Shown here piece after piece: positions 17,673 to 64,000 of a stretch of 64,000 nt of DNA. The DNA is from a virus, in IMG/VR virus record IMGVR_UViG_3300021185_003284, positions 49,072 to 113,071 of that record. One strand, 5' to 3'. The notes beneath the pieces are model-generated. The model worked only from the letters and a program-made list of their open reading frames with translations. It ran no database searches and was not told the DNA's origin. The translations under genes were made by a program, and so were the position numbers. Every line of letters begins with the position of its first letter. Position 1 is the stretch's first letter.

Positions 17673-17837
17673 ATGATTGAAATAATAAAACATACATTAG
17701 GAATTTGTGGAGAGCATTGGCATCCAAACGTCATAACCTTGTTGGCCGGCTCTCCCATCTTTCTTACTGCTGTACATTACATTAAATGTAAATGTGGTGG
17801 ATGGTTTAAACATAAAGATAATTGTGAGAATCAATAG
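17673..17837 (+). CDS. small membrane protein (54 aa)
   Basis: The 54-aa product begins MIEIIKHTLGICGEHWHP, has one hydrophobic segment (residues 20-38), and ends with a KCKCGGWFKHKDNC cysteine cluster. It follows the DksA-like gene after 4 nt and overlaps the lipoprotein start by 14 nt. I believe similar small proteins occur in other T4-like phages, but function is unknown. Confidence 0.6.
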   Translation: MIEIIKHTLGICGEHWHPNVITLLAGSPIFLTAVHYIKCKCGGWFKHKDNCENQ

Positions 17838-46111: not shown

Positions 46112-46603
46112 ATGGAAAAAATGCCAACACAACCTACTTGGACTCACCAAGGGAGGTTAATCACTGATATTTCAGATATGCCAGAAGGAACCTATGGGTT
46201 TATCTATGAGGTAGTTTATAAACCTGAGGATATTCGTTACATAGGTAAAAAAGTACTTTACTTTGAACGTAACAAACGTTTAGGAAAAAGAGCTTTAGAG
46301 GAGTTGAGATTAGAAAGAAAGGCTAAAGGAATAGGTGGTCGTACCCCCCTTAAACAAAAAGTAATAACAGAATCTGATTGGAGAGACTATTTTGGTTCCC
46401 AAAAAGAGATAGTAGCATTAGCAAAAAAAGATAAGACTCAGGATAATTGGGAGAAGAGAATACTTGAGTATGTTCCTAATAAAAAGCTATTAACCTATTA
46501 TGAGACAAAGCACCTATTTATTAATAACGTATTAGAGGACGATTACAGTTCTCATATAAATGATAATATACTAGGTAAGTTTTACAGAAAAGACTTTAAA
46601 TAA
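46112..46603 (+). CDS. GIY-YIG-type nuclease-like protein
   Basis: The 163-aa protein has GTYGFIYEVVYKPEDIRYIG near residues 26-45. This fits the G-(I/F)-Y...(Y)-I-G core of GIY-YIG nucleases, followed by KKVLYFERNKR. A later ENWEKRILEYV-type segment could hold the catalytic Glu. I recall proteins of this type in T4-like phages as putative homing or mobile nucleases. It overlaps the first tagged gene by one base. Confidence 0.65.
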   Translation: MEKMPTQPTWTHQGRLITDISDMPEGTYGFIYEVVYKPEDIRYIGKKVLYFERNKRLGKRALEELRLERKAKGIGGRTPLKQKVITESDWRDYFGSQKEIVALAKKDKTQDNWEKRILEYVPNKKLLTYYETKHLFINNVLEDDYSSHINDNILGKFYRKDFK

Positions 46604-46905
46604 TGAAACTGATAGAAATTTTAACAGAAGAGAATAGATATAACGCCGACGGTTACGACGAAGGTGATATCAAGCTCATGGGAGATATGATTCTTCCTAC
46701 TGATAAAATGGTAGTATTGCAAGCAGAAGAAGATACGTATAACAGAGGACTATTAGTAACTAGTAATAAAGATAAAAGTTACGATGTAGCCTATTGGGCA
46801 GACGACAAAACTAAACCTTATCCTATAGGAATAGAAATAGACGGTAAGGAAGTATCAAAAGATGCTAAAATTATTAAGTTTATGTTTCACCCAGAAATGA
46901 AATAA
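46603..46905 (+). CDS. tagged small protein (LTE tag, 100 aa)
   Basis: The product begins MKLIEILTEENRYNADGYDE. The short hydrophobic peptide ends in L-T-E, fitting the (L/I)-x-E prohead protease site as in T4. The mature part is an acidic alpha/beta domain with a WADDKTKPYPIG segment. It is the first of a nearly continuous series of tagged genes. Confidence 0.6.
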   Translation: MKLIEILTEENRYNADGYDEGDIKLMGDMILPTDKMVVLQAEEDTYNRGLLVTSNKDKSYDVAYWADDKTKPYPIGIEIDGKEVSKDAKIIKFMFHPEMK

Positions 46906-46908
46906 ATT

Positions 46909-47694
46909 ATGATTAGACTAAAAGAAATTATCGGATACCCGTCTTTAAAGTACCACTTAGACAACAAGCTCTCATTACATGAGCATGTCTATCGTTATAA
47001 CTCTGAAGCATTTATACAATTATTCAAAGAAGCAAGAGAAGCTCTTAGAGACGAAGCTATAGAGTTAGACGAGACTGATACAGAACTTTTAGAAACAACA
47101 GATATAGGAGAATATGCTGATTATAATGGAATGAGAGTTCCTTTAGATTTACCAATGGTATCTCCTAAATACAATCCTTTGTTCGAAATTGGAGCTTTAA
47201 TCGATGAAATGATCGAAAATGAAGATACAATTGACGAAGCAGCTTCTATAGACGAAATGATTGACTATGAAATGGTCAAAGAATTAGTAGAGTCTATTGG
47301 GGGTAACATAAACATAGACAAATTTAAAAAAGCAGTCTCAATACAAAATGAAAATTTTGACCATAATGGTTTTGAAATGCTTAAAGCGTCAGTAGATTAC
47401 ATACCCGAAGCTGAATACAAAGGTAAAAAGGTTGCACTTAACAAACCTAAAAGAGGTGGAAGTAAAAAATTCTATGTCTACGTTAAGTCTAAGAAAGGAA
47501 ATGTAAAAAAAGTATCTTTCGGTGATACTGGCCTTTCAGTTAAGTTTAAAAAGAAAGGTGCAAGAGCATCATTTGCTGCACGTCATAAATGTGCAACTAA
47601 GAAAGATAAAACAAAAGCAGGTTATTGGTCTTGTAATATAGGCCGTTATTGGAAATCATTAGGCGGTTCATCTAACTTCTCAGGATACTGGTAG
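46909..47694 (+). CDS. putative packaged protein with basic C-terminal domain (261 aa)
   Basis: The N-terminus (MIRLKEIIGYPSLKYH) is a weaker form of the tag. Residues 30-150 are strongly acidic. The last 80 residues are very basic, with FYVYVKSKKGNVKKVSFGD, ARHKCATKKDKT, AGYWSCNIGRYWK and conserved Cys/Trp/His. Similar ARHKC...YWSC tails occur in head-associated proteins of T4-like marine phages as I recall. An acidic propeptide followed by a basic DNA-binding tail fits a processed internal protein. Confidence 0.6.
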   Translation: MIRLKEIIGYPSLKYHLDNKLSLHEHVYRYNSEAFIQLFKEAREALRDEAIELDETDTELLETTDIGEYADYNGMRVPLDLPMVSPKYNPLFEIGALIDEMIENEDTIDEAASIDEMIDYEMVKELVESIGGNINIDKFKKAVSIQNENFDHNGFEMLKASVDYIPEAEYKGKKVALNKPKRGGSKKFYVYVKSKKGNVKKVSFGDTGLSVKFKKKGARASFAARHKCATKKDKTKAGYWSCNIGRYWKSLGGSSNFSGYW

Positions 47695-47695
47695 T

Positions 47696-48013
47696 ATGAA
47701 ATTAAGTAATATAATATTAGAAGAAACTGAAGAGAGCTTCAACGACTTTGCTGAAGGCAGAGGAGCAGGAGCAGGTAAGATTGCTTCATCCGCTAAAGAT
47801 AAAGGAGGCGACTCCATGTTAACTCACCACCACTTTAATGTTAAGCTTCCTTACTATAAAAAGGCAGCAGCTGGAAACTTTGATTTAAAAAAAGCTAAAG
47901 AAGAGTTTGATACCACGCATAAAAGTATTAACTTTAGTATGAAACCTATAGACTTTCAAAAGGAGATGGGAAGATTAGAAGTATTAGGAGAGTTAATTAT
48001 TAAGCATGGCTAA
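47696..48013 (+). CDS. tagged small protein (ILE tag, 105 aa)
   Basis: The product starts MKLSNIILEETEESFNDFAE, a near-copy of the tags on the 48266 and 48630 proteins, with I-L-E as cleavage motif. The rest is Gly/Ala/Lys-rich (GRGAGAGKIASSAKDKGG), then helical. No enzyme motif. It overlaps the next gene by 8 nt. Confidence 0.6.
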   Translation: MKLSNIILEETEESFNDFAEGRGAGAGKIASSAKDKGGDSMLTHHHFNVKLPYYKKAAAGNFDLKKAKEEFDTTHKSINFSMKPIDFQKEMGRLEVLGELIIKHG

Positions 48014-48269
48014 GCCGTACAGAGAAACACAAGTAGAAGATTTTATAGTTAGAGAATTTTTAGAAGAGACATCTTCTTTTGAATTCGTATGGCATAGAGA
48101 TAAGGAAGATAGATATATACTGCCGACACACATAACAGACTGGCAATTTCAATTAGACAACGATGTACCCCGTATATTAGGAAAAGATAAACTATTTATA
48201 CCTAAAGAGACATATCACCGACTTATTAAAGGAACAGGAGATTTAACTCTAAAGATTTGGAAATTATGA
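48006..48269 (+). CDS. hypothetical protein without tag (87 aa)
   Basis: The 87-aa protein (MAKPYRETQVEDFIVREF...) has Trp/Phe-rich central strands (FEFVWHRDKEDRYILP) and lacks the N-terminal tag. It overlaps both tagged neighbours. It could be an antitoxin- or chaperone-like partner, but nothing in its sequence shows this. Confidence 0.55.
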   Translation: MAKPYRETQVEDFIVREFLEETSSFEFVWHRDKEDRYILPTHITDWQFQLDNDVPRILGKDKLFIPKETYHRLIKGTGDLTLKIWKL

Positions 48270-48625
48270 AACTAAGTAAAATTATTCTTAGCGAAAGTAC
48301 TAAAGTAACTGATCTACAGGGACTTACTTTTGATCTACTTGTATCCATGTTTATAGAGAAACCCATGTTCGGATTTAGCTTACCAAACCCAGACGATTCA
48401 TCAAGGAGTATTCATGCAGAAGATGATTTAAATAGTTGGAAAGCAGAAATTGAAAAAAAATACGGCAACGTAAAAATTAAAATAGATACTAAATCAGAAT
48501 CACCTTGGAATAGAGTACAGGTATTAGATGATAAGTTTAGGAAAGATAAAGAGAGCTATACAGCTGGAAAAGCAGCCTGGCTGGATAAAGAAAGAGCTGC
48601 AGGTAGAACATACGGATTAGATTAG
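48266..48625 (+). CDS. tagged small protein (LSE tag, 119 aa)
   Basis: I chose ATG at 48266 because it gives the tag MKLSKIILSES; the frame extends to a TTG at 48257. The ATGA overlap with the upstream stop supports this. The mature part is a charged alpha/beta domain ending in KAAWLDKERAAGRTYGLD. Function is unknown. Confidence 0.6.
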   Translation: MKLSKIILSESTKVTDLQGLTFDLLVSMFIEKPMFGFSLPNPDDSSRSIHAEDDLNSWKAEIEKKYGNVKIKIDTKSESPWNRVQVLDDKFRKDKESYTAGKAAWLDKERAAGRTYGLD

Positions 48626-48629
48626 TATT

Positions 48630-48824
48630 ATGAAATTATCAAAATTAATATTAGAGAATAAGAGGATTATTCATAGATCAGAAATTAACCTTTCTGAAAA
48701 AGACGTTGACCTACTATCTGAAAATATAACTGGTAAGCTCGAAGAATTTCTAGACACCGGAGATAGGTCATTTCTTAAGAAGACTGTTACCGCAGCAATC
48801 CAAGAACTCTTAAAAGATTCTTAA
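48630..48824 (+). CDS. tagged small protein (ILE tag, 64 aa)
   Basis: The 64-aa product starts MKLSKLILENKRIIHRSE and is otherwise a short helical domain (LSEKDVDLLSENITGKLEEF). Its tag differs from the 48266 tag by one residue over the first nine. It is one of the smallest members of the tagged family. Confidence 0.6.
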   Translation: MKLSKLILENKRIIHRSEINLSEKDVDLLSENITGKLEEFLDTGDRSFLKKTVTAAIQELLKDS

Positions 48825-48830
48825 TAATAG

Positions 48831-48861
48831 TTGTTTTTACGAATTATTCTTCTTATATTAT
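48831..48861 (+). promoter_or_regulatory. host-type promoter (TTG-N20-TATATTAT)
   Basis: TTG at 48831, 20 nt, then TATATTAT at 48854-48861. It gives the primase gene its own promoter within the late region, so the primase can be expressed before the tagged genes. Confidence 0.65.
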
Positions 48862-48884
48862 AGAATAATAGTTACGGACAATCT

Positions 48885-49808: not shown

Positions 49809-50587
49809 TTAAACAAGGAATGAACATTCTTAAAGAGAATGCAAAGAAAAGATTAGACTTTAACCCCGAGTTAAAGCAGATAAATTTTTTAGACCGAAGA
49901 GTCTATAAGAGAAGCGAAGGAGTATATTACCCGTCTGTAACTACAATACTCCAATATATGCCCAAGAATAAGTTTTTTGAAACATGGATGAAAGACGTTG
50001 GGCATAACGCTGATCTTATTATGCGTAAAGCAGGTAAAGAAGGAACTCAAGTACATGAAGCTGCCGAGAAATTAGTAGAGGGAGAAGAAGTAACCTGGAT
50101 GGACGATTATGGGAACGCTAAATACTCTCAACTAGTATGGGAGATGATACTTAAGTTTGCTGAGTTTTGGAAGACATATAAACCTGAACTAATATCATCA
50201 GAACAATTTGTATGGTCAGATAAACATAAGTATGCTGGAACAGCTGATATAGTATGTAAGATGAATGGAGAGACCTGGTTACTGGATATTAAAACTTCTA
50301 ATAGTATACATAAGTCGTATGATCTACAATTGGCTTCCTATGCAAAAGGGTTAAAAGAAAGTAGAGGAGTAACAATAGAGAGAACAGGTATTATTTGGTT
50401 AAAAGCTCACTCTAGAGGTCCAAGTAAACAGAAGAATGTAATTCAAGGTAAAGGATGGAAGCTGTTACAGATAGATGACATAGAAAAAAACTTTAGTTTA
50501 TTTAAAAACATATACGAACTATACTCTTTAGAGAACCCAAATACTGAACCTATTTATAATAGTTACCCTACAACTATAAAAATATGA
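49805..50587 (+). CDS. PD-(D/E)XK nuclease (RecB/Cas4-like fold)
   Basis: The 260-aa protein has the PD-(D/E)XK pattern. A helix with GTQVHEAAEKL near residue 80 is followed by YAGTADIVCKM near 141 with the first Asp, WLLDIKTSNS near 156 with D-x-K, and QLASYAKGL near 172. This order matches RecB-type exonucleases of phages. It is coupled to the primase, so a role in replication or recombination is likely. Confidence 0.8.
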   Translation: MIKQGMNILKENAKKRLDFNPELKQINFLDRRVYKRSEGVYYPSVTTILQYMPKNKFFETWMKDVGHNADLIMRKAGKEGTQVHEAAEKLVEGEEVTWMDDYGNAKYSQLVWEMILKFAEFWKTYKPELISSEQFVWSDKHKYAGTADIVCKMNGETWLLDIKTSNSIHKSYDLQLASYAKGLKESRGVTIERTGIIWLKAHSRGPSKQKNVIQGKGWKLLQIDDIEKNFSLFKNIYELYSLENPNTEPIYNSYPTTIKI

Positions 50588-51549
50588 AAAAATTTATCTA
50601 TTTAGCGTTAATACTTTCTTTAGCTAGCTGTAAAAGCTACCAACTATCTACCTACTATACAGAACCAGTAACTATTAACGGTATAGAAGCCGATGTTATT
50701 GAAAATGAATTTCAATTAGATAGAAAGTTTAGACTTGACGATAAGTTTAGATGGAACTTTGCACAGTATGCAATGAATCAAGATTTAAGATGGTATTCTG
50801 ATTTCTATTTTAACAATAGGATGTATAGAAGTCCATTTAGTTCACCATTTGATTTTTATTGGAATTCACAACAGTACTGGTGGAATTGGTCATCAAACTA
50901 TTCATTTAATTATGGATTTAACCATTGGGATACTTTTGGATTCAACGGTTGGAATAATTATGGATGGAACAATTACTATTATTTGAATAATGTATATACG
51001 TGGAATAATTGGAGATGGAACAATAGAATAGATAACAACTACTGGGAAGATAGAAGCAGAAGAAACGTTGCTTATATAAACGGTAGAAGAGGGTCTAGAA
51101 ATACTATAGTACAAGCACCAACAGGAACAGTAGGTAGAACTATAGTAAATGTTAACACACCTAGATTAAGGAATGATAGAATTCCTACACCTAACGATAT
51201 TGACATTGTAATTGAAAGACCAGATAGAAGCCTTATTGGAAGATTTATAGATAAAATGGAAGATAAAGGTATAAGAGTAAGAACATATAATAACCCTAAT
51301 CAGATTAATAATGATAAAATTATCAGACCTAATCCTAGAAGCTACAACAGGACCGAAAGCGGTAATAATGGCGGGAGGAGCTGGAACAGGCAAAACGTAC
51401 CTCCTCAACCAACTAGATCTAGGCAGCCTAACGCAGTTCAACCCAGACAAGTACGTGGAGGATCAGGATCACCCGTACTACAACAATCTAGGAGCAGCCA
51501 GCAGCCAAGTAGCCAAGGACGTAGCAGCAGCAGCAGAATTAAAAACTAG
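50584..51549 (+). CDS. lipoprotein with aromatic/Asn-rich body, overlapping the next gene
   Basis: The 321-aa product has a lipoprotein signal (IYLALILSLASC). Residues 60-155 are extraordinarily rich in Trp, Asn, Tyr and Phe, and the tail is basic with many Arg, Gln and Ser. The last 239 nt overlap the following gene in another frame. In the overlap the product is low-complexity (QSRSSQQPSSQG), while the other frame encodes a conserved P-loop. The tail is thus probably overprinted on an older gene. A surface-exposed role is likely; function is unknown. Confidence 0.6.
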   Translation: MKKFIYLALILSLASCKSYQLSTYYTEPVTINGIEADVIENEFQLDRKFRLDDKFRWNFAQYAMNQDLRWYSDFYFNNRMYRSPFSSPFDFYWNSQQYWWNWSSNYSFNYGFNHWDTFGFNGWNNYGWNNYYYLNNVYTWNNWRWNNRIDNNYWEDRSRRNVAYINGRRGSRNTIVQAPTGTVGRTIVNVNTPRLRNDRIPTPNDIDIVIERPDRSLIGRFIDKMEDKGIRVRTYNNPNQINNDKIIRPNPRSYNRTESGNNGGRSWNRQNVPPQPTRSRQPNAVQPRQVRGGSGSPVLQQSRSSQQPSSQGRSSSSRIKN

Positions 51550-52249
51550 TTTAGTTTGGGATACCACTGCATCTGGTGTACAGTTTAGAAAAGGACTTGA
51601 TAACCTTTTAAATAAAGGATATAAGGTCTATATGGTAATGGTATATACTCATCCTATGATAGCATATATTTCTAACTTTACTAGAAAGAGAAATATTCCT
51701 GGAGCATCAGTATTTAAAACCTGGAGAAACGTATATCAAAAGATAGCCGAATATGATAAGGCAACTAAAGGTAATTTTTCAATCTTTGTAAATGATTTTG
51801 GAGGTAAGTATGCTAAGGAAGTAGAAGGGTTTAACCTAGCATCTAAAAATGGAGAAGCAGGAATCAAAGACTATTTAACAAAGTATAACGAAAAAACAGG
51901 AGCAGGTAAAAGCTCTTTCTTTAAACCAGTTGAGATGTCATCATCAGAGGAGCAAGAGTTTAATAAAGCTCTTGGTAGTTTAGATTACGATAGAGATAAT
52001 AGATCTGAAGATAAAGCGATTAAGACTGAATTTTTAAAGTACTATAGAAAAAACGGAGTAGGACCAGGTGAAGATCAATTAAAGGTAACTAGGGATAAAT
52101 ATAGAGATAAAAAAGTAAAGCTTGACAAAGAAGCTTCTCAGGTAATGGATAATATTATAGATATGATTTTTAATCCTAAATATCAAGATAAACTTAACCA
52201 TTCATCTCCTAAAGAAATAGATCAAAAAGTACAAGCATTTTTAGCATGA
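51311..52249 (+). CDS. tagged zeta-toxin-like P-loop kinase
   Basis: The 312-aa product begins MIKLSDLILEATTGPK, with the I-L-E tag. It continues at once with AVIMAGGAGTGKTYLL (Walker A, residues 18-33) and a FNPDKYVED segment, as in zeta-toxin/polynucleotide-kinase type enzymes. VWDTTASGVQF near residue 83 fits the next conserved Asp region of zeta-like kinases. This class phosphorylates nucleotide sugars or nucleic-acid ends. As a tagged protein it would be delivered with the DNA. Its first 239 nt overlap the upstream lipoprotein gene. Confidence 0.7.
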   Translation: MIKLSDLILEATTGPKAVIMAGGAGTGKTYLLNQLDLGSLTQFNPDKYVEDQDHPYYNNLGAASSQVAKDVAAAAELKTSLVWDTTASGVQFRKGLDNLLNKGYKVYMVMVYTHPMIAYISNFTRKRNIPGASVFKTWRNVYQKIAEYDKATKGNFSIFVNDFGGKYAKEVEGFNLASKNGEAGIKDYLTKYNEKTGAGKSSFFKPVEMSSSEEQEFNKALGSLDYDRDNRSEDKAIKTEFLKYYRKNGVGPGEDQLKVTRDKYRDKKVKLDKEASQVMDNIIDMIFNPKYQDKLNHSSPKEIDQKVQAFLA

Positions 52250-52728
52250 TAAAACTAGCTAACATATTAATTGAAAGTGAAGGACCAGCTCCTAAAAAAA
52301 TACCATCTGAAATTTGCTGGCATTTGAGTGAGGAAAAAAGACCAACCTTTCCTGACTATGGATTCCATATTGGCACTGAATTACAGTCTTTAGATAGAGG
52401 TCTTCAAATGCTTGGAGACGAAATGGTTGATGATCCTGACAATACAGTCTTTTATTTACATAAAGTAAAAGTAAATCCTTCAGCTGAAATTTATCCTGAT
52501 ATTTTATTTGATGATCCTGAGGAAGGGTATACTGTACCTAGTGACCAAATAGATAAAAATAAAATTTATTTCTACGAAAATGGTCATGAAGGGATAGACG
52601 GTCCGGAACCTAATCTATCAATCTATACTAGTGGTAATAATATTAAATTAGTTCAAATTATAATTCTAGATACAAGAGGATGGGAAGATGGAGAATCAGA
52701 ATTAAACAAAAGATATAACTCTTTATGA
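52246..52728 (+). CDS. tagged protein of unknown function (LIE tag, 160 aa)
   Basis: The product starts MIKLANILIESEGPAPKK with L-I-E. The body has ICWHLSEEKRP, then YGFHIGTELQSLDRGLQMLG and YLHKVKVNPSAEIYPDI. The H...G.HIGT..qSl.R pattern resembles domains found in phage and plasmid polyvalent proteins and some ADP-ribosyltransferase-like folds, but I cannot assign it. It overlaps both neighbours by 4 nt. Confidence 0.55.
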   Translation: MIKLANILIESEGPAPKKIPSEICWHLSEEKRPTFPDYGFHIGTELQSLDRGLQMLGDEMVDDPDNTVFYLHKVKVNPSAEIYPDILFDDPEEGYTVPSDQIDKNKIYFYENGHEGIDGPEPNLSIYTSGNNIKLVQIIILDTRGWEDGESELNKRYNSL

Positions 52729-54578
52729 TAGCATTATACCCAGGAGCATATAAACCACCTCATAGAGGCCATTTTAACGTCGTTAAGTCTTTACTTGATG
52801 GATCGTATAGTGGTGCAATATACAGTAAGGATGATTATAAAGAAAAAGGAGCAGACTTACTTGGAGGTGTTAAATCAGAAAAGCCTAAGATAGATAAAGT
52901 AATTGTATTTGTTGGTGCCGGTGAGAGAAACGGTATTACTAAGGAGGAGTCAATAGCTATCTGGAAGATATATGCTCAGCATTTAGGTAATGTAGAGATA
53001 TTAGATGGACAGAAGAACCCTATGTTTGCTGCAAAAGACTATGCTCAAGCAAGCCCAGATACAGAATTTGTAGCAGTAACAGGCATTAGAGGAGAAAAAG
53101 ACTTTGTAGACTTAAGAAGAGTAACTACGTTTAAAAATGCTCCTAACGTTAAAGGATTAGCATTAGCTTCAAAACCAGGATCTGGATTTAGAGCATCAGA
53201 TTTTAGAAATAAAATACTATCAGGTAACTTAGATCAAATTACTGACTACTTTCCTGAAGAGTTAGATAAGGAAGAAATATTATCAATATTGACAAATTTA
53301 AAAGATAAAATTGTAGCAGAAATAATTGCTTCTAATATTGAAGGCTTTATAAGTGAATATTTTGTTAAAGAAGAAACAGAAGATAATACACCTTCTTTAA
53401 CTAAGTACATGGCATCATTACTTGAGTATATGATTGATGAAGGAATGAAAATAACACCTCTACCAGAAATAAAGACAATCAAAGATGATGTAAATGCAAA
53501 AGATATATTTGGTAAAACAGCTCATTACGATCCAAACAGTAAAGAGATAGTACTTTACACTTCCGGTAGACACGATAAGGATATATTAAGGTCCTTTTCT
53601 CATGAGATGGTTCATCATATGCAAAACCTAGAAGGTAGATTAGGTAATATCCAAACTTCTAATACAAACGAAGATGATAACTTATTAGAATTAGAAAAAG
53701 AAGCTTACTTGAAAGGAAATATTACTTTTCGTAATTGGGAAGATAGTATAAAGAACGAATCAAAAAATGTTATGGCAGAAGGAAAATATGACTCAATAGT
53801 AACTTACCTTACTAACAAGAGTGTTGAAGCAGTGAAGAATGGGTTAATTAGAAAATTAAACCATTACAAAGAAGGTCATTTCGGCGATCCTAAAACTGAA
53901 GAAGCTAGAATTAGTATGAAAAAAGAAATAGAAAAATCATACCCAATTCTACTCATAGATATACCTGACGATATAGATAAAGAGTTCCAGAAAACTATTG
54001 ATCTTGAATTTGACTTTGAATTGAAAGTTATATTTGCTAAAGGCTCAGACTCTATTATGAGAGACGGAGGAGCATACAAAGGAGGTTTCGGACCGGATGA
54101 TGAATTTGAAAGTCCTAAAGTAGAACTGGAATTTGTTCTTGATCCTTATAACTTTCCTAACGACTTTGAAGAATTATCAGGACAGATATCAGATGTATTA
54201 AGACACGAAATAGAACATTTAACTCAAGCAGGAGGAAACGAAAGAGGTAAATCATTTGGAAAAGATTCTCAATTTGGAGGAGAATTTGGAACAGAAGAGG
54301 AGTCTATATTTCGTACAATGATTCAAAAAGGAATATTAGCTAACGGTGTATCGTATTTAACTTTACCATCTGAAATAGATGCTAACATACAGGGATTATA
54401 TCTTTCAGCTAAAAAACAAAAAAGACCTTTTGTTGACGTTGTAGATCAATATCTATACCAATTTACAGACCAATATGATGAGCAAGGAGATCCTTACTTA
54501 ACTAAAAAAGATGTTGAAGATGTAAAGAAAGTATGGGCATTAAGACTACCGGCACTAGGCATTAAACAAAAATTATAA
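52725..54578 (+). CDS. nucleotidyltransferase fused to two metallopeptidase-like domains
   Basis: Residues 1-160 look like a cytidylyltransferase-family nucleotidyltransferase: LYPGAYKPPHRGHFNVV with HxGH (H13-H16) and a later conserved region (SGFRASDFRNKI). Residues 280-330 hold SHEMVHHMQ with a zinc-peptidase HExxH (293-297). A second HExxH is in RHEIEHLTQ (494-498), each in a mostly helical domain. The three-part layout in one 617-aa chain is unusual. It lacks the N-terminal tag but sits between tagged genes. Confidence 0.7.
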   Translation: MIALYPGAYKPPHRGHFNVVKSLLDGSYSGAIYSKDDYKEKGADLLGGVKSEKPKIDKVIVFVGAGERNGITKEESIAIWKIYAQHLGNVEILDGQKNPMFAAKDYAQASPDTEFVAVTGIRGEKDFVDLRRVTTFKNAPNVKGLALASKPGSGFRASDFRNKILSGNLDQITDYFPEELDKEEILSILTNLKDKIVAEIIASNIEGFISEYFVKEETEDNTPSLTKYMASLLEYMIDEGMKITPLPEIKTIKDDVNAKDIFGKTAHYDPNSKEIVLYTSGRHDKDILRSFSHEMVHHMQNLEGRLGNIQTSNTNEDDNLLELEKEAYLKGNITFRNWEDSIKNESKNVMAEGKYDSIVTYLTNKSVEAVKNGLIRKLNHYKEGHFGDPKTEEARISMKKEIEKSYPILLIDIPDDIDKEFQKTIDLEFDFELKVIFAKGSDSIMRDGGAYKGGFGPDDEFESPKVELEFVLDPYNFPNDFEELSGQISDVLRHEIEHLTQAGGNERGKSFGKDSQFGGEFGTEEESIFRTMIQKGILANGVSYLTLPSEIDANIQGLYLSAKKQKRPFVDVVDQYLYQFTDQYDEQGDPYLTKKDVEDVKKVWALRLPALGIKQKL

Positions 54579-54588
54579 AATTAAGGTT

Positions 54589-55131
54589 ATGGAAAAATTA
54601 GTAGATTTATTAGAAGCGTACCCGCTTCCAGAAGTAAAAGAAAAACCAAAGTATAAAATATACTGTGATATGGACGGCGTATTAACTGACTTTGAAAAGA
54701 GATTTGAACACTTTAGTGGAATGCACCCACAAGAGTATGAAAAAGCAAAAGGTACTCCTGCATTTTGGGAACTTATAGATAATAAAATTGGAGTTAGATT
54801 TTGGGTTGGAATGGATTGGATGCCTCAAGGCAAAGAGTTATGGAACTTTATATCACCCTACCAGCCGGATTTATTAACTTCTCCTTCTAGACATAATAAC
54901 TCTAGATTAGGAAAACAGTTATGGGCTAAGAATAACCTTAACCCTAAACCAAAAGTAATAATGGCATACTCTAAAGATAAGCAGAGATATGCAAATGAAA
55001 ATAGTATATTAATAGACGATAAAAAGTCAAATATAAATGAATGGGCATCTAAAGGCGGTATAGCTATAAGATGTAAAGACGGTAACGTTAACCATGTTAT
55101 AGAAAAATTAAAAGAGTTAGGTTATGAGTGA
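54589..55131 (+). CDS. tagged HAD-family 5'-nucleotidase
   Basis: The 180-aa product starts MEKLVDLLEAYPLPEV, a variant tag with L-L-E, then has YCDMDGVLTDFEKRFEHF (HAD motif I, near residue 26) and ILIDDKKSNINEW near residue 142 (motif IV). This is the pattern of 5'(3')-deoxyribonucleotidases. The gene has a GGTTATG start context and overlaps the next gene by 8 nt. Together with the tag, it could dephosphorylate host nucleotides early after injection (inference). Confidence 0.75.
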   Translation: MEKLVDLLEAYPLPEVKEKPKYKIYCDMDGVLTDFEKRFEHFSGMHPQEYEKAKGTPAFWELIDNKIGVRFWVGMDWMPQGKELWNFISPYQPDLLTSPSRHNNSRLGKQLWAKNNLNPKPKVIMAYSKDKQRYANENSILIDDKKSNINEWASKGGIAIRCKDGNVNHVIEKLKELGYE

Positions 55132-55699: not shown

Positions 55700-55701
55700 A
55701 G

Positions 55702-55709
55702 TATTTATA
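55702..55709 (+). promoter_or_regulatory. TATTTATA motif
   Basis: TATTTATA follows the upstream stop by 2 nt and is 53 nt before the ATG at 55763. Confidence 0.4.
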
Positions 55710-55762
55710 TATAAGAAAGTACTCCGAAGAGGATACAGTAATAATACAAAACAATACTACAA

Positions 55763-56119
55763 ATGACTCAAAAAGAAGTACTAGATGCTCTGTTAGCTGA
55801 AATCAAGCACATCAAGACTCACATGCCAAATGGTGAATTAAAACAAATGGCAAGAGATTTTGAAAGCATGAAAGAGGACTTATCAGACCTAAAGTATACA
55901 CTACTAAATCCTGAAAATGGAGTTATAGTTAATACTAACAGAAATACCGAATATAGAAAAGAACTCGAAAATAACGAAGTTGACTTTAGAAATAAGTTAA
56001 TGGAAATAGAAGATCTTAAAAGATGGAAGGAAGGAGTTACAAGGGCACTGTGGATTATCTTTGGTATTTTAGCAACAGTCGTAATTAGAATGATACTAAT
56101 GCATTCAGAACAAGGATAA
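55763..56119 (+). CDS. coiled-coil protein with C-terminal membrane helix (118 aa)
   Basis: The helical, charged 118-aa protein (AEIKHIKTHMPNGELKQMAR) ends in one hydrophobic helix (LWIIFGILATVVIRMILM, residues about 95-113). It may be anchored in the membrane by its tail, or be a holin- or spanin-like protein. No other evidence favours either. Confidence 0.55.
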   Translation: MTQKEVLDALLAEIKHIKTHMPNGELKQMARDFESMKEDLSDLKYTLLNPENGVIVNTNRNTEYRKELENNEVDFRNKLMEIEDLKRWKEGVTRALWIIFGILATVVIRMILMHSEQG

Positions 56120-56126
56120 TAAAATA

Positions 56127-56327
56127 ATGTCTATAAAATTAAAACCATCAACAAAACAGTATATAAAAGATTCTAGAGGTAAAATGACTAATAAGTGGAC
56201 TATGTTACATTTTCCACCTTCAAGTTTTAAAACAAAAGAATTAAAGGAGATGTACAGCAGTAACGCCTACAGTAGAAAAAAACATCTAATTAAAAAAGAA
56301 TTAGAAAACAGAGGTCAAGAAGTATGA
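56127..56327 (+). CDS. small basic protein (66 aa)
   Basis: The 66-aa product is strongly basic (SIKLKPSTKQYIKDSRGK, ending KKHLIKKELENRGQEV) and could bind nucleic acid. It overlaps the following tagged basic protein by 4 nt. Confidence 0.55.
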   Translation: MSIKLKPSTKQYIKDSRGKMTNKWTMLHFPPSSFKTKELKEMYSSNAYSRKKHLIKKELENRGQEV

Positions 56328-56602
56328 AAAAATCTGAATTAATAAATGCTATTAAAGAAGTATTAGCAGAAGAAAAACCAGGTCTATGGGCTAACATCAG
56401 AGCTAAAAGAGCTAGAGGTGAAAAACCTGCTCATAAAAACTCTAACGCACATAAAGATGCAGTTAAGGCTGGTAAGAAGATTAACAAAGAAGGTCTTTGG
56501 GCTAATATTAATGCTAAGAAAAAAGCAGGTAAGAAACCTTCTCATGGTAATTCTAATGCTCACAAAGATGCAGAAAAGGCTGGTAATAAGTTAAAACCAT
56601 AA
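56324..56602 (+). CDS. tagged basic protein with two GLWANI repeats (92 aa)
   Basis: The product starts MKKSELINAIKEVLAEEKPG with I-K-E and L-A-E sites. It then has two near-identical units of about 32 residues (residues 20-51 and 57-89), each of the form GLWANI-x-AK-x(3)-G-x-KP-x-H-x-NSNAHKDA-x-KAG. The repeats are Lys/His-rich, fitting a packaged DNA-binding protein. I recall GLWANI-type basic repeats from other phage proteins, without known function. Confidence 0.7.
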   Translation: MKKSELINAIKEVLAEEKPGLWANIRAKRARGEKPAHKNSNAHKDAVKAGKKINKEGLWANINAKKKAGKKPSHGNSNAHKDAEKAGNKLKP

Positions 56603-56605
56603 ATA

Positions 56606-57475
56606 ATGCCTTTAACTCTAGCACAACTTATAGGAGAGATTATAAGTGATACTAAAATCATTTGTGATAATTGCGGTTGGAGTTGGAACAAAAAAGACGG
56701 AGGAGATGATTTATATATGTGTCATAAATGTGACCATGATAACACTCCCCATGCTTTACAGGAGAAAGTAAACCCTGAGCTAGAATCTCAAATAAAAGAC
56801 TATATAGAAGACTATTCAGAAATAAATGTAGGACTACTAAAAAACCTACTTAAGATAAAGCAAAAATTCCCTAAAGAATTAGATCCTAAATCAGGAGGCA
56901 ATAAATACGGATATAGAGGCACTACATTTAATAAGGAGTTTATAAGTAAATTAAAAGTTAAAAGTGAATCAAACGGAGTAACTGAATATGAGGTTCCTTC
57001 TAATTTAAAAATTAACTCAAAAGGAAATAAAGGCTTTTTAAGCTTTTCCACAGATGAGGATGTAGCTAGAGGATTCGGACATTACTCAGGGTATGTGGAT
57101 CATAAAAAATCTTCTGATAGAGTAGGAGGGTACGTTAAGGTTTCATTAGATAACCCTAACTTTATTTTGCACCCCGATTATATGGGTAGACTTTCACAAG
57201 ACATGGAGTATAGTAAAGAGAGTGAGAAAGAAACTTTATATGTAGGTACTTCATATTCACCCGAAAGCATATATGTTGTAGATGAAAATTTATATAAAGA
57301 AAACTACGCTGATGGTAAAGTGAAAGGTAAAAGCAAACCAGGTAGAGTAAAAAAATCTGGTGCTAGCTGTAATGGCTCAGTTACCGACCTTCGTAGAAAG
57401 GCTAAAAATGCATCAGGTGAAAAAGCTAAGATGTATCATTGGTGTGCTAATATGAAGAGCGGTAAGAAAAAATGA
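56606..57475 (+). CDS. probable ADP-ribosyltransferase with packaging-type N-terminus
   Basis: The 289-aa protein starts MPLTLAQLIGEIISD, a variant tag, followed by a zinc ribbon (CDNCGW near residue 20, CHKC near 38). An R-S-E type ADP-ribosyltransferase pattern follows: GYRGTTF near residue 102 (Arg), GFLSFSTDEDVA near 143 (S-T-S-like) and SEKETLYVG near 206 (E-x-E). The C-terminus (SGASCNGSVTDLRRKA...MYHWCANMKSGKKK) is a basic Cys-containing tail. In T4, Alt is an injected ADP-ribosyltransferase acting on RNA polymerase; an analogous role is inferred here. Confidence 0.72.
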   Translation: MPLTLAQLIGEIISDTKIICDNCGWSWNKKDGGDDLYMCHKCDHDNTPHALQEKVNPELESQIKDYIEDYSEINVGLLKNLLKIKQKFPKELDPKSGGNKYGYRGTTFNKEFISKLKVKSESNGVTEYEVPSNLKINSKGNKGFLSFSTDEDVARGFGHYSGYVDHKKSSDRVGGYVKVSLDNPNFILHPDYMGRLSQDMEYSKESEKETLYVGTSYSPESIYVVDENLYKENYADGKVKGKSKPGRVKKSGASCNGSVTDLRRKAKNASGEKAKMYHWCANMKSGKKK

Positions 57476-58101: not shown

Positions 58102-58102
58102 T

Positions 58103-58111
58103 CTATTTATA
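58103..58111 (+). promoter_or_regulatory. TATTTATA-type motif before large polyprotein
   Basis: CTATTTATA lies just after the upstream stop and 28 nt before the ATG at 58140. Confidence 0.45.
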
Positions 58112-58139
58112 TTATATACGTATATAAAACATTTCGCCA

Positions 58140-61100
58140 ATGACCTATAAAGAACTTAAAAACCGTTTGAATAAGTGCGAGTATGCACTAAAGGCTATCA
58201 AAGACGGAACTCACAAAGATATTAGCACAATAGATGTTCAGAAGACAACTACTCAATTGAATATGATTAAAGAGAGCTTACAGAATCAAATCAAACAACT
58301 TAAAGAAGGTAATTCTAAGACTTACTTAGTAACACCGAAGAAAGGACAGACAACTGCTGTATCTTTAGGTGATGATGAAAAAGACGCATTAAAGGATGCT
58401 GATGATGTAAAAGCAATAAAAGGTATAGATGGAGAAGAGATAAAAGAAGGTATTGAGTTCACATCAGACGAGACTAAAGCAATAGCAAAGAAGGTAGGTC
58501 AGGCAGTCGCAAAAGCTTTAAAAGATTCCGGTGATGATGTAGCACATATGAAAGCTACTCACATAGAACCTAACTCATTTGAAATATACGTAGAGTATAA
58601 GAATAATTCTGATGATTCATTTGCTTTTCACTTAAGTAAAAATAAGTTACATTTAGCAGATTTTTCTTTTAATAAAGCATTAGTTGATGTTAGCGTTAAA
58701 CCTTCAGGAGAACCAATCTTACACGTTGACGTACTGGCTAATGAGCTGGTTAAACACTTTAAATCTTTAAGAGAAAATAAAGACCTAAAGGAAGATCCTT
58801 ACCAAACTACATACATTAAAGTAGGTAGAAGAGATTATAAAAAAGCAATGTCTATATTAGACGGTAATTTAGATCCAACTTATGTTAAGATGGACATTGT
58901 AGATGACGACGGAGACGGTAATGTGATTATATATTTTAATTTTAGAGCATCAGATGACGGTGAACCAGGTGAAAATGTAGAAGCATTTATATACGATGCA
59001 GCATCAGATTTACAAGCTCAAGGAATACATGTAACAGGATCTAGTCACGATATTGATGAGGGTATGGATATTAACGACCCAGTTCTTATGAAAATGAGAG
59101 CTTCAAAAACTAAAGTAGCAAGAAAAAAAGCAATCGTAAAAGGAGGAGAAAGACATGTAGGTAAGAAAAGAGAGTTATTAGCTAAACTTAAAGCTAAGAG
59201 AGCTCAAGTAATGAAAGATATGGAGAATGATCCATCAATCGAACCAGAAGGAGGCCCTGTTGCTGATATGTACGGAGATCAATTGAATAAAATAGATAAA
59301 GATATAGCTAGAGCATCAGGAAGAAAACAAATGGACTATGATACTGCAGTCGGTAAAGTAGACGAATATGCTATTGACCCAGCAGAATATGGAGACATAG
59401 GAGCTGCATATTTAAAAGGATTTAATAAACCTCATTCTTTAAACTTAGATCAACTAGAAATGCTAGGGCGTAAAATAGTTAAACAATTATATAAAGGAGA
59501 TTTTGAAGCAGCAAAGGCTAAACACCTTAAAGAAGGTTCGGATGACGACTTATTTACTTTTGGATTTGATTTAGATAAAATTCAACACGTAATTGATCAC
59601 CTAAAAAATAACTACTCAGATCAAGATTACGAACTTCATGTAGGTAGAGGAGATACGCACCCAAATGCTGTCACCCTTAATAATCCTGACATGGAAAACG
59701 ATAAGGAATTAGGAAATTTATTAATTGCAGCAGAAGATCAAGAAGAAACAGATTATCAAGTCAATAGACAAATGCAAGAAGATGAAGAAGAAGATGCTAA
59801 GAATGATGCTGATTATGAAGCTGGATGGCATGACGATCCAAGAAAGGATGAAGGTGACGAAACAGATGATTACGGTAGACCTCATGTAGATCCAAAAGGA
59901 TCTAGAACGTTTTTAGAACCAGATGAAATGCTACCTCATAATAGATTCAAAAAAATGACACAAAAAGAAGATACAGATATAGGTCATCAAGACGATGAGC
60001 CTAGTATGTTAAGTGCAACTGCTAGAGAAACAGCAGAATACTCTGCTAAATTATTAAAGAAATTACAGGCATACGATCAGCACGATGGAGAAGTAGATTT
60101 TCCAAACTGGTGGCAATCTAAGCTTATATTAGCTAGAGAGTATATGTCAGCAGCATTTCATTATTTAGATTCAGAAGAAAAGCAACCTGCATTAGATCAA
60201 TTAGCTTTAGAAAGCGTTGTCAAAGAAGGTAGAGGAGTAATGGACTCAATAAAAGATGCAGTAGAAGAATTAATGTTTGATGGAGATATAAGCGAAAAAG
60301 AAGCTGCTATGGAATTAGTAATTGCAATATCAGACCAATATGGATTTGATTTAGCAGGACATGAATTCGATATATTCCATAAAGGTATGAGTGAAAATAT
60401 AGATAAAGTAGCGGGAGGTATTCCTTACAAAGTTGAAGGTAACAAAGCTATAATTAATGAACCTTTAGATGATGCCACAAAAGAACGTTTAATGGGTAAA
60501 GCCAAAGAACATGGATATCATGCAGCACCTAATCAAGCAGGAGGTATTACTATTACCTTAAAAAAAGGCATGCACAATGAATCTGACAATTTAGGAGAAG
60601 AAAGATATAGAAAAGTAACTGACGATGATAAAGGACTTGATGGAGTTTTTTATGTTGAAGACGATGCCTTTGTTGATCTTGATTACGGTAAATATAAATC
60701 TGCTACTAAGGATTTATTAGACCTTGCTATGGAACAGGGACACGAGTATGAAAGTGTAGAAAACTATTATGAGTATGCTGATCATTTCGAAAACGAATTG
60801 AAAGATTATGCTGAAGGAGAAGTACCTGATTGGCAGATGAATGACCTTGCTGTGAAGTATGGAACTGATTATAGTCAGTTTTACGGTGAAGAAGATGATG
60901 ATGATGATATGGACGAAAATAAGAAAACATTAAAAGAATATGCTTCTAGAGATTTCGATGAAATTTTCGGAGCACTAGGATATAGACAAGGCTTTGACGA
61001 GTTTATAGAAGATAATCCTGGAGCAGTAGAGGCATTAATGAACTGGATTGGCTCAATAAGTGAATTCAGAAAAAGAATAGGAGATGAATACTCTAAAGAA

Positions 61101-61592
61101 GAACAAGAAAACTTAGGCTTCTATTATGGTGATGATGATGAAGATGTATATGAAAATGCAGAATTAGATAAGGTAACTAAAGCAAAGAGACTTATTAAAC
61201 AACAAGCTCCTGCTATGAATAAGTTATCTCAAGACGATCCTAAAAGAAAAGCATTTATTGATAAAGTAAAACAAATTAATAAAAAGTATAAACAACTATT
61301 AGCTAAACAAGACGATAAGGTATCAGGAACAGGAAAAGATCAAGAATTAGATGAAGCTGGTCCTGGATTTAAGCATGACTGTGCTGCTAAAGTAGTTCAT
61401 GAAAAATATGGTAAAGGTAATACCATTCCAGAAAAACATACCTTAGTAAAAGAAGGTAACAAGTATGTAGTTACTCATTACGACGTTTTATTTGAAAACG
61501 GAAATACAGTATTAGATATACCAGTTAACGAGTTAAAGATAGAAACTACTAACGAACACTGGCATAAAGGATACAAAAAGAAAAAGAAGTAA
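58140..61592 (+). CDS. very large acidic protein with repeated (L/I)xE sites (1150 aa)
   Basis: The 1150-aa protein is mostly acidic and helical with no recognised enzyme domain. (L/I)-x-E motifs recur at regular intervals, often followed by Gly or a charged residue. Examples are LKEG (54-57), IKEG (101-104), LKED (216-219), IDEG (305-308), LKEG (463-466), and later LGEE, LKEY and LDEAG. Between them are separate small alpha/beta units (e.g. YIKVGRRDYKKAMSIL near 225). This suggests a precursor cut into several peptides by a prohead protease, or a scaffold-like internal protein. The C-terminal 80 residues are a more conserved basic domain (AGPGFKHDCAAKVVHEKYG). Confidence 0.6.
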   Translation: MTYKELKNRLNKCEYALKAIKDGTHKDISTIDVQKTTTQLNMIKESLQNQIKQLKEGNSKTYLVTPKKGQTTAVSLGDDEKDALKDADDVKAIKGIDGEEIKEGIEFTSDETKAIAKKVGQAVAKALKDSGDDVAHMKATHIEPNSFEIYVEYKNNSDDSFAFHLSKNKLHLADFSFNKALVDVSVKPSGEPILHVDVLANELVKHFKSLRENKDLKEDPYQTTYIKVGRRDYKKAMSILDGNLDPTYVKMDIVDDDGDGNVIIYFNFRASDDGEPGENVEAFIYDAASDLQAQGIHVTGSSHDIDEGMDINDPVLMKMRASKTKVARKKAIVKGGERHVGKKRELLAKLKAKRAQVMKDMENDPSIEPEGGPVADMYGDQLNKIDKDIARASGRKQMDYDTAVGKVDEYAIDPAEYGDIGAAYLKGFNKPHSLNLDQLEMLGRKIVKQLYKGDFEAAKAKHLKEGSDDDLFTFGFDLDKIQHVIDHLKNNYSDQDYELHVGRGDTHPNAVTLNNPDMENDKELGNLLIAAEDQEETDYQVNRQMQEDEEEDAKNDADYEAGWHDDPRKDEGDETDDYGRPHVDPKGSRTFLEPDEMLPHNRFKKMTQKEDTDIGHQDDEPSMLSATARETAEYSAKLLKKLQAYDQHDGEVDFPNWWQSKLILAREYMSAAFHYLDSEEKQPALDQLALESVVKEGRGVMDSIKDAVEELMFDGDISEKEAAMELVIAISDQYGFDLAGHEFDIFHKGMSENIDKVAGGIPYKVEGNKAIINEPLDDATKERLMGKAKEHGYHAAPNQAGGITITLKKGMHNESDNLGEERYRKVTDDDKGLDGVFYVEDDAFVDLDYGKYKSATKDLLDLAMEQGHEYESVENYYEYADHFENELKDYAEGEVPDWQMNDLAVKYGTDYSQFYGEEDDDDDMDENKKTLKEYASRDFDEIFGALGYRQGFDEFIEDNPGAVEALMNWIGSISEFRKRIGDEYSKEEQENLGFYYGDDDEDVYENAELDKVTKAKRLIKQQAPAMNKLSQDDPKRKAFIDKVKQINKKYKQLLAKQDDKVSGTGKDQELDEAGPGFKHDCAAKVVHEKYGKGNTIPEKHTLVKEGNKYVVTHYDVLFENGNTVLDIPVNELKIETTNEHWHKGYKKKKK

Positions 61593-61593
61593 T

Positions 61594-63183
61594 ATGCACA
61601 AGTTAGAAAAACTTATATTAGAATCTTACGGCCAAATCCAAGAGGAGATAAAAAAGCCAAAAGATATGCCTAAACCTTTTCTTGATAGAATTGAAAAGCA
61701 GTATGGACCTGTAGATATGGAACATGACTTCTTTACTGACGACTTAACTCGTTATATGAAGCATACTAGCTATAATAAAACTACAGGGTCTAGAGGACAT
61801 AAAGTTATTAAGTTAGCATCTTTTTCTAAGATGTATGATGATATGAAAGCACTTGTTGATGACATTAAAAACTTAATGGGTTCTGATGATATTAGGACTG
61901 ATAAAGCAGCAAGAGAATTATTTGATCTAATCAAAACTAACTTTAGAAAACTACAGAGATACCTAAGAACAGAAAGACCTGATCAATATGCTATTATTAG
62001 ACAGCAAGCAGCTCTTCAAGAAATGTTTAAAGACTTTCAAGTAAATGCTAGTTTAATTGTTGAACAAAAAGAAGATGAACTAAAAATAGGTAAAGTAAAA
62101 AATATTGAGATATACGTAAACGACCAATCATCTATATCTGATACTATGTTCTATAAGCTTGTAGATAAAAATTCAGGTAAAGAATTTGAAGTAAGCGTAG
62201 ACGTCGCAGGAGAAGAAGTAGATTTGAATTACGTAAAAGAAGAAATTCCTATACTAGTTAAGATAGGTTTTCCTGCTGGAGATGCTATCGGTAATTTTAT
62301 CGTTAAAGATATTAACAAAGAGTTAGAAGAAGGAACGCACGAATCCGCAGTAAAAAATGAAAATACTAACTTTAAGGTATTAAAAAAAGGACCTTATTAT
62401 AGGTACCTTCCAACTGATGATTTATTTACTGATCTAAATCAATTAGGACACCACGGATTACAGCGCAGCCCAGACAACTTAGCAGTAATTAAAACTGCAG
62501 AAGAACTTTTAGATATTTTAGATGATATGCATATGGAGGACCCAGAAAGAGCATTAGCTTTTTCAGATCAGAATAATGATATTATAAAGTTTCAAGGAAA
62601 GGTACTAAATGAATCTATGCTTGATGAAGTAGAAGATGAAGAAGAACCTACACCAGAAGAAGAACCAGACACTGCAGCACCAGAAGAAACAGTATTAGAA
62701 GATGCTACAGATAAAATATTAGGTAAGTTTCCAACTGTTAAAGCAGCTATAATTAAACTTCAGACTGAACAATTTAAAGAATTTGTAGATTCTATTGATT
62801 GGATATCACCAAGACCTTCTTCATTTAGAGTAAACCTCAAGAATGGTCAAGACTATATACTTAAATGGACAGGTAAAACTTTTGAAGCTCAAATATTAGG
62901 TAAAAGATATTTACTTTCAAATATTGCAGATTATCAACAAGCATTAGATAAATTAGCTATATTATATAGAGAGGCACCAATGACTGGAGCAGGCGAAGGA
63001 GAACCTGCTGATGTTGACACCGGCGGCGGTGGAGGCGGCGGAGGAGATTTTCCTGGTGAAGAAGGTGGAGCAACCGGAGAAGATCCAGCATTACCAGATG
63101 ACGCAGGCGGAGAAGAAGGAGGAGCAGACCTAACAGATGAACCAATCGATTTTGAAGAACCGGCAGAAGAGCCAGAAGCATAA
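61594..63183 (+). CDS. tagged large protein with acidic C-terminus (529 aa)
   Basis: The product starts MHKLEKLILESYGQIQEEIK with I-L-E. Residues 60-170 form a helical domain, and 180-260 are strand-rich (VKNIEIYVNDQSSIS). After residue 340 comes an acidic Pro/Glu region, a short folded domain (about 370-455), and a Gly/Asp/Glu-rich tail with poly-Gly. No enzyme motif is seen. It follows the 1150-aa gene after one base and probably shares its fate in the capsid. Confidence 0.6.
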   Translation: MHKLEKLILESYGQIQEEIKKPKDMPKPFLDRIEKQYGPVDMEHDFFTDDLTRYMKHTSYNKTTGSRGHKVIKLASFSKMYDDMKALVDDIKNLMGSDDIRTDKAARELFDLIKTNFRKLQRYLRTERPDQYAIIRQQAALQEMFKDFQVNASLIVEQKEDELKIGKVKNIEIYVNDQSSISDTMFYKLVDKNSGKEFEVSVDVAGEEVDLNYVKEEIPILVKIGFPAGDAIGNFIVKDINKELEEGTHESAVKNENTNFKVLKKGPYYRYLPTDDLFTDLNQLGHHGLQRSPDNLAVIKTAEELLDILDDMHMEDPERALAFSDQNNDIIKFQGKVLNESMLDEVEDEEEPTPEEEPDTAAPEETVLEDATDKILGKFPTVKAAIIKLQTEQFKEFVDSIDWISPRPSSFRVNLKNGQDYILKWTGKTFEAQILGKRYLLSNIADYQQALDKLAILYREAPMTGAGEGEPADVDTGGGGGGGGDFPGEEGGATGEDPALPDDAGGEEGGADLTDEPIDFEEPAEEPEA

Positions 63184-63193
63184 TAATAATAAT

Positions 63194-63754
63194 ATGAAAA
63201 ATAACTTTAACTTAAGAACATTCTTAACAGAAAATAAACTTACACAAAACAGTCAAGCGTTAGTAGAAATGCTTACTATATCAGGAAACTCAGAAGAAGA
63301 AATAAAGAAAAATGCCGAAGAGTTATTAGCATTAGCTAAAAAAGTAGGATTGGACAAAGCTGAAATAAGATATAATGATGACGGGTCTGTTGATGGGGTT
63401 GAATTAAATGACACAGTAGAGGATAGAAACGATGGTAAAACTCGAAAAGTTTCTGACTTACAAGACAAACAGTATCATTCTGCTAAAGCTGGACGCCCTG
63501 AACAAGAGCCTTCTTTCAAACCTAAAAAGTTAAAGAAGCTTACAATAGGAGGTAAAACATACGAAAAAGGAGATTTTGATCCTAACGATGACGGTAGAAT
63601 TATGTCAATTGAAAAATATCCTAACGGATACTTCATTACTGGAGGAATATATTCAGACTACGGAGACGGTGATGGACCTAAAGAAGGATATGGATACGCT
63701 ATCGACTTGAAAGGTAATGAAATGGACGAAGAGGATCTAGAAGGAAGATACTAA
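63194..63754 (+). CDS. tagged protein (LTE tag, 186 aa)
   Basis: I chose ATG at 63194, 10 nt after the upstream stop. The start gives MKNNFNLRTFLTENKLTQNS with L-T-E, whereas the longer frame from 63137 lies in the upstream gene. A helical region (residues 20-55) is followed by a beta-rich domain with YNDDGSVDGVELND and DPNDDGRIMSIEKYPNGYF. No known function. Confidence 0.6.
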   Translation: MKNNFNLRTFLTENKLTQNSQALVEMLTISGNSEEEIKKNAEELLALAKKVGLDKAEIRYNDDGSVDGVELNDTVEDRNDGKTRKVSDLQDKQYHSAKAGRPEQEPSFKPKKLKKLTIGGKTYEKGDFDPNDDGRIMSIEKYPNGYFITGGIYSDYGDGDGPKEGYGYAIDLKGNEMDEEDLEGRY

Positions 63755-64000
63755 ATGAATCTTATAGACAAAGCAATATTAGAATGGTCTTACAAGACTA
63801 CTAAAGGATATCCTGACATCAATAGTCAAGAGGATATGGCTTTGTTTGAATCTATGTTTGGTTTTAATTTATCAGAAAATGCTTTCGAAAGAGAAGTAAG
63901 ACAGAAGATATTAGACGTTTCTTCCGGAGATTTAGAAACAATGGGGGATGACTATAGGGTAGCAAATAAAGGTAAAATTGATTCAACTAAATTTATCGAG
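63755..64000 (+). CDS. partial tagged protein at window end
   Basis: The reading frame starts at the ATG directly after the upstream stop and runs out of the window after 82 codons. It begins MNLIDKAILEWSYKTTKG, another variant tag with I-L-E, and continues as an acidic helical protein. Function cannot be judged from the fragment. Confidence 0.55.
   Translation, partial: MNLIDKAILEWSYKTTKGYPDINSQEDMALFESMFGFNLSENAFEREVRQKILDVSSGDLETMGDDYRVANKGKIDSTKFIE

Follow-up and report, generated by a model that had tools for sequence, protein, structure and literature searches.

Shared and exchangeable N-terminal tags, probably capsid-targeting propeptides, on a block of cargo genes in an uncultured T4-related phage

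Introduction

The internal proteins of phage T4 are described as diverse defence proteins with only a capsid targeting sequence (CTS) in common (PMC3012670), so the targeting principle is already known. The CTS of IPI, IPII, IPIII and Alt is about 10 residues long, with hydrophobic residues at −6, −3 and −2, a terminal glutamate and unrelated mature parts behind it (PMC9026906, PMC3012670). IPII and IPIII start with MKTYQEFIAE, and in IPIII residues 4 and 7 are important for targeting and residues 8 and 10 for processing; Asp at position 10 leaves targeting intact while it prevents processing (PMC9026906).

Many head proteins of phiKZ and SPN3US are likewise processed after a short x-x-E motif, but the available parts of these papers describe mostly long propeptides (20–254 residues), an A/S-x-E motif and no common short tag (PMC10052503, PMC9026906). 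In P1, an N-terminal signal (DarB) directs an anti-restriction protein into the head; here the Dar proteins are incorporated stepwise, and no short common (L/I)-x-E tag is described (PMC9024508). The polyvalent proteins (Iyer et al. 2017; PMC5512222) mix ART, ParB-like, zincin and nucleotidyltransferase domains and are predicted to be packaged, as are the proteins discussed below. However, polyvalent cargo is linked by domain architecture, whereas our mostly small proteins are linked by a putatively cleavable N-terminal tag. We found no description of such tag arrays in marine phages in the open-licence literature.

The DNA analysed here, the window, is a stretch of 64,000 nucleotides (bases 49,072–113,071 of a 113-kb uncultured virus contig). 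Its last 18 kb encode many proteins that begin with short related peptides, or tags. Like the T4 CTS, these are about 10 residues long, with hydrophobic residues at −6, −3 and −2, a terminal glutamate and unrelated mature parts. MIKLSDLILE has its hydrophobic residues at 4, 7 and 8 and its glutamate at 10, the same register as in T4, and spacing and cut-site register of the tags agree generally with the T4 sequence. As in T4, a gp21-type (S77) protease and a gp22-like scaffold are present, in relatives. Unlike T4, with four such proteins, about 11–12 occur in this one partial genome, with at least four tag classes, longer tags, multidomain cargo and a block directly upstream of terminase–portal–head genes. 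New here are the number of cargoes, the several tag classes, the exchange of one tag for another on a given cargo and the wide occurrence among uncultured phages. We regard the shared N-termini as probable cleavable capsid-targeting propeptides, addressed to the prohead core, on a large swappable cargo set; docking, cleavage, packaging and injection are inferred, without virion proteomics.

Results and discussion

Tagged genes of the window

The source phage is T4-related, marine and near a Flavobacterium phage. The nearest isolate is Flavobacterium phage immuto_2-6A (immuto), whose gp6-like baseplate protein is 56% identical; megablast of the window DNA against isolate phages gave no match. 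Tags extend to about 20 residues and fall into at least four classes: class A, MKLS(D/N/K)(I/L)(I/L)LxE; class B, MKKSxL(K/R)xI(I/V)(K/R)E..., where another (L/I)xE follows around residue 20; class C, FxLRxFLTENKLT; and class D, LTLAQLIGE.

All tagged genes lie on the + strand (a slash marks the end of the tag). The block opens with a 100-aa protein (46603–46905; class A tag MKLIEILTE/E, 46603–46629) whose mature part reads ILPxDKxxxLQAEExxYNRGLLV. It is followed by proteins of 105 aa (47696–48013; MKLSNIILE/E, 47696–47722; immuto ortholog MRLLELLREAKE), 119 aa (48266–48625; MKLSKIILSE/S, 48266–48295) and 64 aa (48630–48824; MKLSKLILE/N, 48630–48656). The gene at 51311–52249 encodes a 312-aa P-loop kinase (MIKLSDLILE/A, 51311–51340) and is followed by one for a 160-aa protein (52246–52728; MIKLANILIE/S, 52246–52275). 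Further along are a HAD-type 5'(3')-deoxyribonucleotidase of 180 aa (54589–55131; MEKLVDLLE/A, 54589–54615), a 92-aa basic repeat protein with LWANIxAKRxRGEKPAH modules (56324–56602; class B tag MKKSELINAIKEVLAE/E, 56324–56371) and a 289-aa protein with a Zn-ribbon, an ART-like domain and an SCxGSVT tail (56606–57475; class D tag MPLTLAQLIGE/I, 56606–56638). The last two are a large acidic protein of 529 aa (61594–63183; MHKLEKLILE/S, 61594–61623), in the position of a 548-aa protein that lies shortly upstream of the terminase/head module in the metagenomic relative L165, and a 186-aa protein (63194–63754; class C tag MKNNFNLRTFLTE/N, 63194–63232). The latter begins FNLRxFLTENKLTxN, as in a family with 27/32 members in class C and several copies in immuto. 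One tagged protein of 125 aa stands alone outside the block (2633–3010; MKQLEKYIRNVLSE/S, 2633–2674); ILSE likewise closes the N-terminal stretch of the immuto ortholog (MSLINEIKQILSE/V). In immuto, whose host is Flavobacterium sp. LMO8, tagged genes lie between gp093 and gp070 (the protease); gp082 begins MRLLELLRE/A and gp080 MKKSQLRQIIKEAL.

The peptides quoted in a first-pass annotation were found in their places, but its count of at least 12 tagged proteins in 46.6–64 kb was slightly high. By hand we count 11, plus the isolated gene at 2633. The start at 63755 (MNLIDKAILEWSYKTTKGYPD, MNLIDKAILEW) was not accepted, for conservation continues past the glutamate and the stretch resembles part of a folded domain; the start at 32897 is ambiguous (see below). 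The start at 46909 (MIRLKEIIGYPSL) was rejected too, as it shows neither a cut site nor a dip in conservation. Those at 55763 (MTQKEVLDALLAEIKHIK), which reads as a continuous helix, and at 58140 are unconvincing. In all, three or four of the genes listed in the first pass carry no tag. Some genes of the block have no tag. Among them are a large acidic protein of 1150 aa (58140–61592, +), whose C-terminal module also occurs in cyanophage proteins, and the product of 52725–54578 (+), with a nucleotidyltransferase-like N-terminus and, by eye, two HExxH motifs. The start of the kinase gene shares 239 bases with a lipoprotein-like ORF at 50584–51549, and 50943–51241 does not align in the otherwise near-identical relative L009.

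Enrichment of the motif at protein N-termini

A hydrophobic-(I/L/F)-x-E motif lies within the first 15 residues of 10/21 block genes, compared with 9/141 elsewhere on the contig (Fisher p=7e-6). In the same block of immuto the figures are 13/29 versus 18/188 (p=1e-5). Both figures come from automatic counting and deviate a little from the 11 found by hand; internal protein segments gave a null of 4–5% (4.4%). We also clustered 2,124 non-identical proteins from related loci by mature part, which yielded 65 families with at least 5 members. In 26/65, at least half of the members have the motif N-terminally, whereas pseudo-N-termini at other offsets gave 2–6 families. The 26 include a few not accepted as tagged, such as the IDKxxxEW family, and N-terminal calls hinge on the choice of ATG. 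The family-wise comparison of N-termini bears out that the tag is common to unrelated proteins and kept across related phages. At the thresholds used, no BLAST similarity was found between families, as the first-pass annotation had implied in calling the mature parts unrelated; yet ART-like, LWANI and SCxGSVT modules recur behind several tags. The families were split by BLAST, and very distant homology among short mature parts is still possible.

The similar N-termini might instead have arisen by recent duplication of 5' gene ends, or from start-codon or translation-initiation bias, with no function of the peptide. An AT-rich genome does favour K, I, L and N near starts. We give this explanation almost no credence, since codons at identical tag residues agree between genes at 0.50, against 0.44 expected: they have diverged almost to independence, and the peptides are thus old and selected, not freshly copied. 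The glutamate is moreover conserved at fixed spacing and the tag retained family-wide. Together with this codon divergence, the internal-segment, shifted-position and shuffled-pattern controls reject chance, composition and recent duplication of the gene start.

Conservation of the tag as a separate peptide

The clearest family is that of the kinase, in which 51/51 homologs carry the tag. In an alignment of 29 sequences the glutamate at position 10 is invariant and is followed by a few variable residues and then the conserved P-loop strand. The structure model has a pLDDT of 88, with the first residues below 50. Conservation also drops behind the glutamate in the families of 46603 (0.74 in the tag, 0.51 in the next six residues, 0.82 in the mature part), 48266 (glutamate invariant) and 48630 (0.93 in the tag, 0.61 behind it; tag in 37/38 members). 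The families of 47696 and 54589 show no such dip, which counts against a cleavable tag.

A less circular test came from class B. There is some circularity in the class A sequence logo, whose sequences were picked by the motif itself; the family-based and class B tests are free of it. The class B DNA pattern fixed only residues 1–12, leaving residue 20 unforced, and still hydrophobic-x-E falls exactly at residue 20 in 44/80 proteins. The mature parts of these 80 form 63 clusters, one of which contains 12 related proteins; a shuffled class B pattern found 0 matches in the same collection. Kinase alignment and residue-20 site together uphold the proposed (L/I)-x-E ending. In tblastn searches, bare class A and B tags gave no match among isolate phages, the queries being too short or filtered.

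If the tag were merely a docking helix for another phage machine (tail or baseplate, replisome, nucleoid, RNA polymerase), the (L/I)-x-E would be incidental. The tag is predicted to be helical, and a similar, class-B-like start (MKLDQLRTIIREEV) occurs on a coiled-coil-like protein (32897–33322, +) within the baseplate gene cluster. Similarity of that doubtful case to immuto extends beyond the tag, however, leaving its status ambiguous. The conservation drop in several families, the unforced residue-20 site, the cargo orthologs within the head module and the co-occurrence with a protease all speak against such a helix, which we judge very improbable.

Exchange of tags between cargoes

A given mature domain can follow different tags, which directly bears out the first-pass view that the tags are exchangeable. 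The ART-like domain of 56606 stands behind a class D tag with a Zn-ribbon in the window and in L171, and behind a class A tag with a ParB-like domain in L172–L175; L009, a close relative, has the same tag and tail without the ART part between them. LWANI proteins (the 56324 family) have A or B tags, EWEEA-domain proteins A or D tags. The 46603 ortholog of L165, located between protease and scaffold, has a class C tag, while most relatives have class A, and the tag of 54589 also differs among relatives.

Predicted functions of the cargo

The kinase-like and nucleotidase calls of the first pass are supported by matches, the ART-like call by motif only. The 51311 product scores 36.8 bits against Pfam Zeta_toxin (cut-off 22.3) and matches polynucleotide kinase (PNK) and PezT/zeta structures in the PDB (E about 1e-5 to 1e-4); it meets the mark for a P-loop kinase of the zeta/PezT or polynucleotide kinase fold. 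The 54589 product matches the PHROG 2643 deoxyribonucleotidase (E=3e-24), and the 56324 module matches PHROGs 11180/22379. The ART-like domain of 56606 was assigned solely by reading motifs (RG, SFST, EKE), as was the ParB-like domain; the ART-like domain had no Pfam match and only chance-level hits in a PDB profile search. A structure prediction for it (pLDDT 49, from five sequences) was not used. The cargo set differs between relatives.

Basic C-terminal modules recur in 46909–47694, 56324–56602 and 56606–57475: GARxSFxARHxC...AGYWSC, LWANIxAKRxRGEKPAH and SCxGSVTxLRxKA...MYHWCANMKSGKK. They are common to otherwise different proteins, partly to those of cyanophages.

Synteny with the head genes and the maturation protease

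Window and immuto share an order in which baseplate and tail-fibre genes lead to the tagged block, which in immuto is followed by terminase, portal, gp21-type protease, scaffold and gp23. The window ends inside the gene preceding terminase, and this last gene runs off the contig end. L165 matches the window end at 63.73–63.87 kb and bridges the gap to the head genes. Its cargo block leads directly into terminase and portal; next come a 73-aa protein with a class B tag in the gp67/68 position, one of 738 aa, the S77/gp21 protease, two more tagged proteins, scaffold and gp23.

The prediction that a gp21-type protease would be found in the genome holds in the syntenic relatives only. A PF03420 search of the window's own 113-kb contig gave no match, and no protease or capsid gene is present there, because the contig stops just before the head genes. 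Peptidase_S77 scores 124.8 bits in L165 and 120.4 bits in immuto (cut-off 27). The alignment of the L165 protease to T4 gp21 (5JBL, E=1e-24) covers the SRG serine region, and the catalytic region is conserved. The gp22-like scaffold has a QAIAE/A start. Every relative has [IL]V[SA]E in the gp23 processing region, where T4 has LTE/A; conservation of this site favours the capsid-targeting interpretation, and the valine at P3, in place of L/I, counts against it. S77 was found in 14/20 large class-B contigs (13 compact and gp21-like), compared with 7/20 random contigs (3 compact). The latter were drawn with a random 14-mer; a scrambled class B pattern yielded no contigs. Since contigs are fragments, a missing S77 means little.

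The T4 core proteins gp22, gp67 and gp68 are cleaved by gp21. On this precedent, the tags could dock proteins on the prohead core whose task lies within the head (as scaffold helpers, in DNA condensation or in head-size control) and which are degraded or stay there instead of being injected as effectors. A number of the cargoes are low-complexity proteins of basic or acidic character. The small L165 protein between portal and protease has a class B tag, and relatives of 58140, the 1150-aa family, were matched by search with an L165 protein located between portal and protease, upstream of the latter. Kinase, nucleotidase and ART-like proteins, however, have cellular substrates and make poor sense as scaffold, and the cargo set varies across relatives. 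A purely in-head role seems to us unlikely, though less so than the docking helix.

Virion evidence is indirect and comes from cyanophages only, through the T4-GC190 cytidylyltransferase, which was detected in S-SM1 virions by mass spectrometry (PMC3037559). In P-HM2, the GC190 neighbour has modules in common with 58140 and 56324, but GC190 itself has no such tag. P-HM2 was considered as a tag-rich cyanophage, and no tag was seen in the stretch examined. Microcystis phage Mel-JY01 was rejected as another isolate carrying such tags in number: its head-gene order is similar, with one clear tag only, MGKLINILLSE on a cytidylyltransferase-like protein. Such an array is hence not essential to this head design.

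Proposed loading of cargo

Under the capsid-targeting interpretation, the tag, through its hydrophobic residues at −6, −3 and −2 before the glutamate, would dock each protein on the scaffolding core during prohead assembly. The gp21-type serine protease would then cleave behind (L/I/V)-x-E and free the mature protein within the head, and DNA would be packed around the freed proteins. This cargo (the kinase and the nucleotidase, together with ART-like, DNA-binding-like and acidic proteins) would accompany the DNA and most likely enter the next host with it, where it could counter defences or reprogram the cell. The tag, as a module complete in itself, has been joined repeatedly to new cargo, and one tag has been replaced by another on the same cargo.

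More tentatively, and at somewhat less than even confidence, these tags may form a code for loading cargo that is general among uncultured T4-related phages, in which several tag classes are interchangeable addresses copying parts of the scaffold. Unrelated proteins would be loaded by the dozens to hundreds; some of them are multidomain and may be cut again at internal junctions. Class B tags begin much like the scaffold N-terminus. Two immuto cargo proteins start with a minor class E tag (MKKQILSEQFRRMQKLAGIITES), which repeats RMQxLAGI (or RWQxLAGI), a motif located at the C-terminal end of the scaffold proteins recovered.

If the capsid-targeting interpretation is true, the injected protein set of a phage becomes readable from sequence, with the tag picking out cargo where gene functions are unknown, and a large, so far unexplored stock of anti-defence or takeover proteins that act early in marine phage infection becomes accessible. 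Protein delivery in T4-like particles would gain a natural library of signals for head loading, and the number of different proteins per T4-type head would become a testable question.

Additional observations

The motif xEN(F/Y)xDGK recurs at domain junctions in the L172, L175, L009 and window 56606 proteins; these junctions are possibly internal protease sites and the proteins polyproteins. In other uncultured phages (L320, L306, L327/L343), as many as six class B tags are crowded into 7 kb; the tag extends to jumbo phages, as one of these contigs measures 293 kb. In L001 (contig 1–18000), genes at 159–980, 8337–9116, 9948–10661 and 11699–12526 resemble immuto QueC, QueE, FolE and DpdA, which suggests 7-deazaguanine-modified DNA. 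Internal proteins that shield modified DNA would fit the T4 precedent, by analogy. At contig positions 21058–23038 (L002) there are GroES-like and GroEL-like phage genes, as in immuto.
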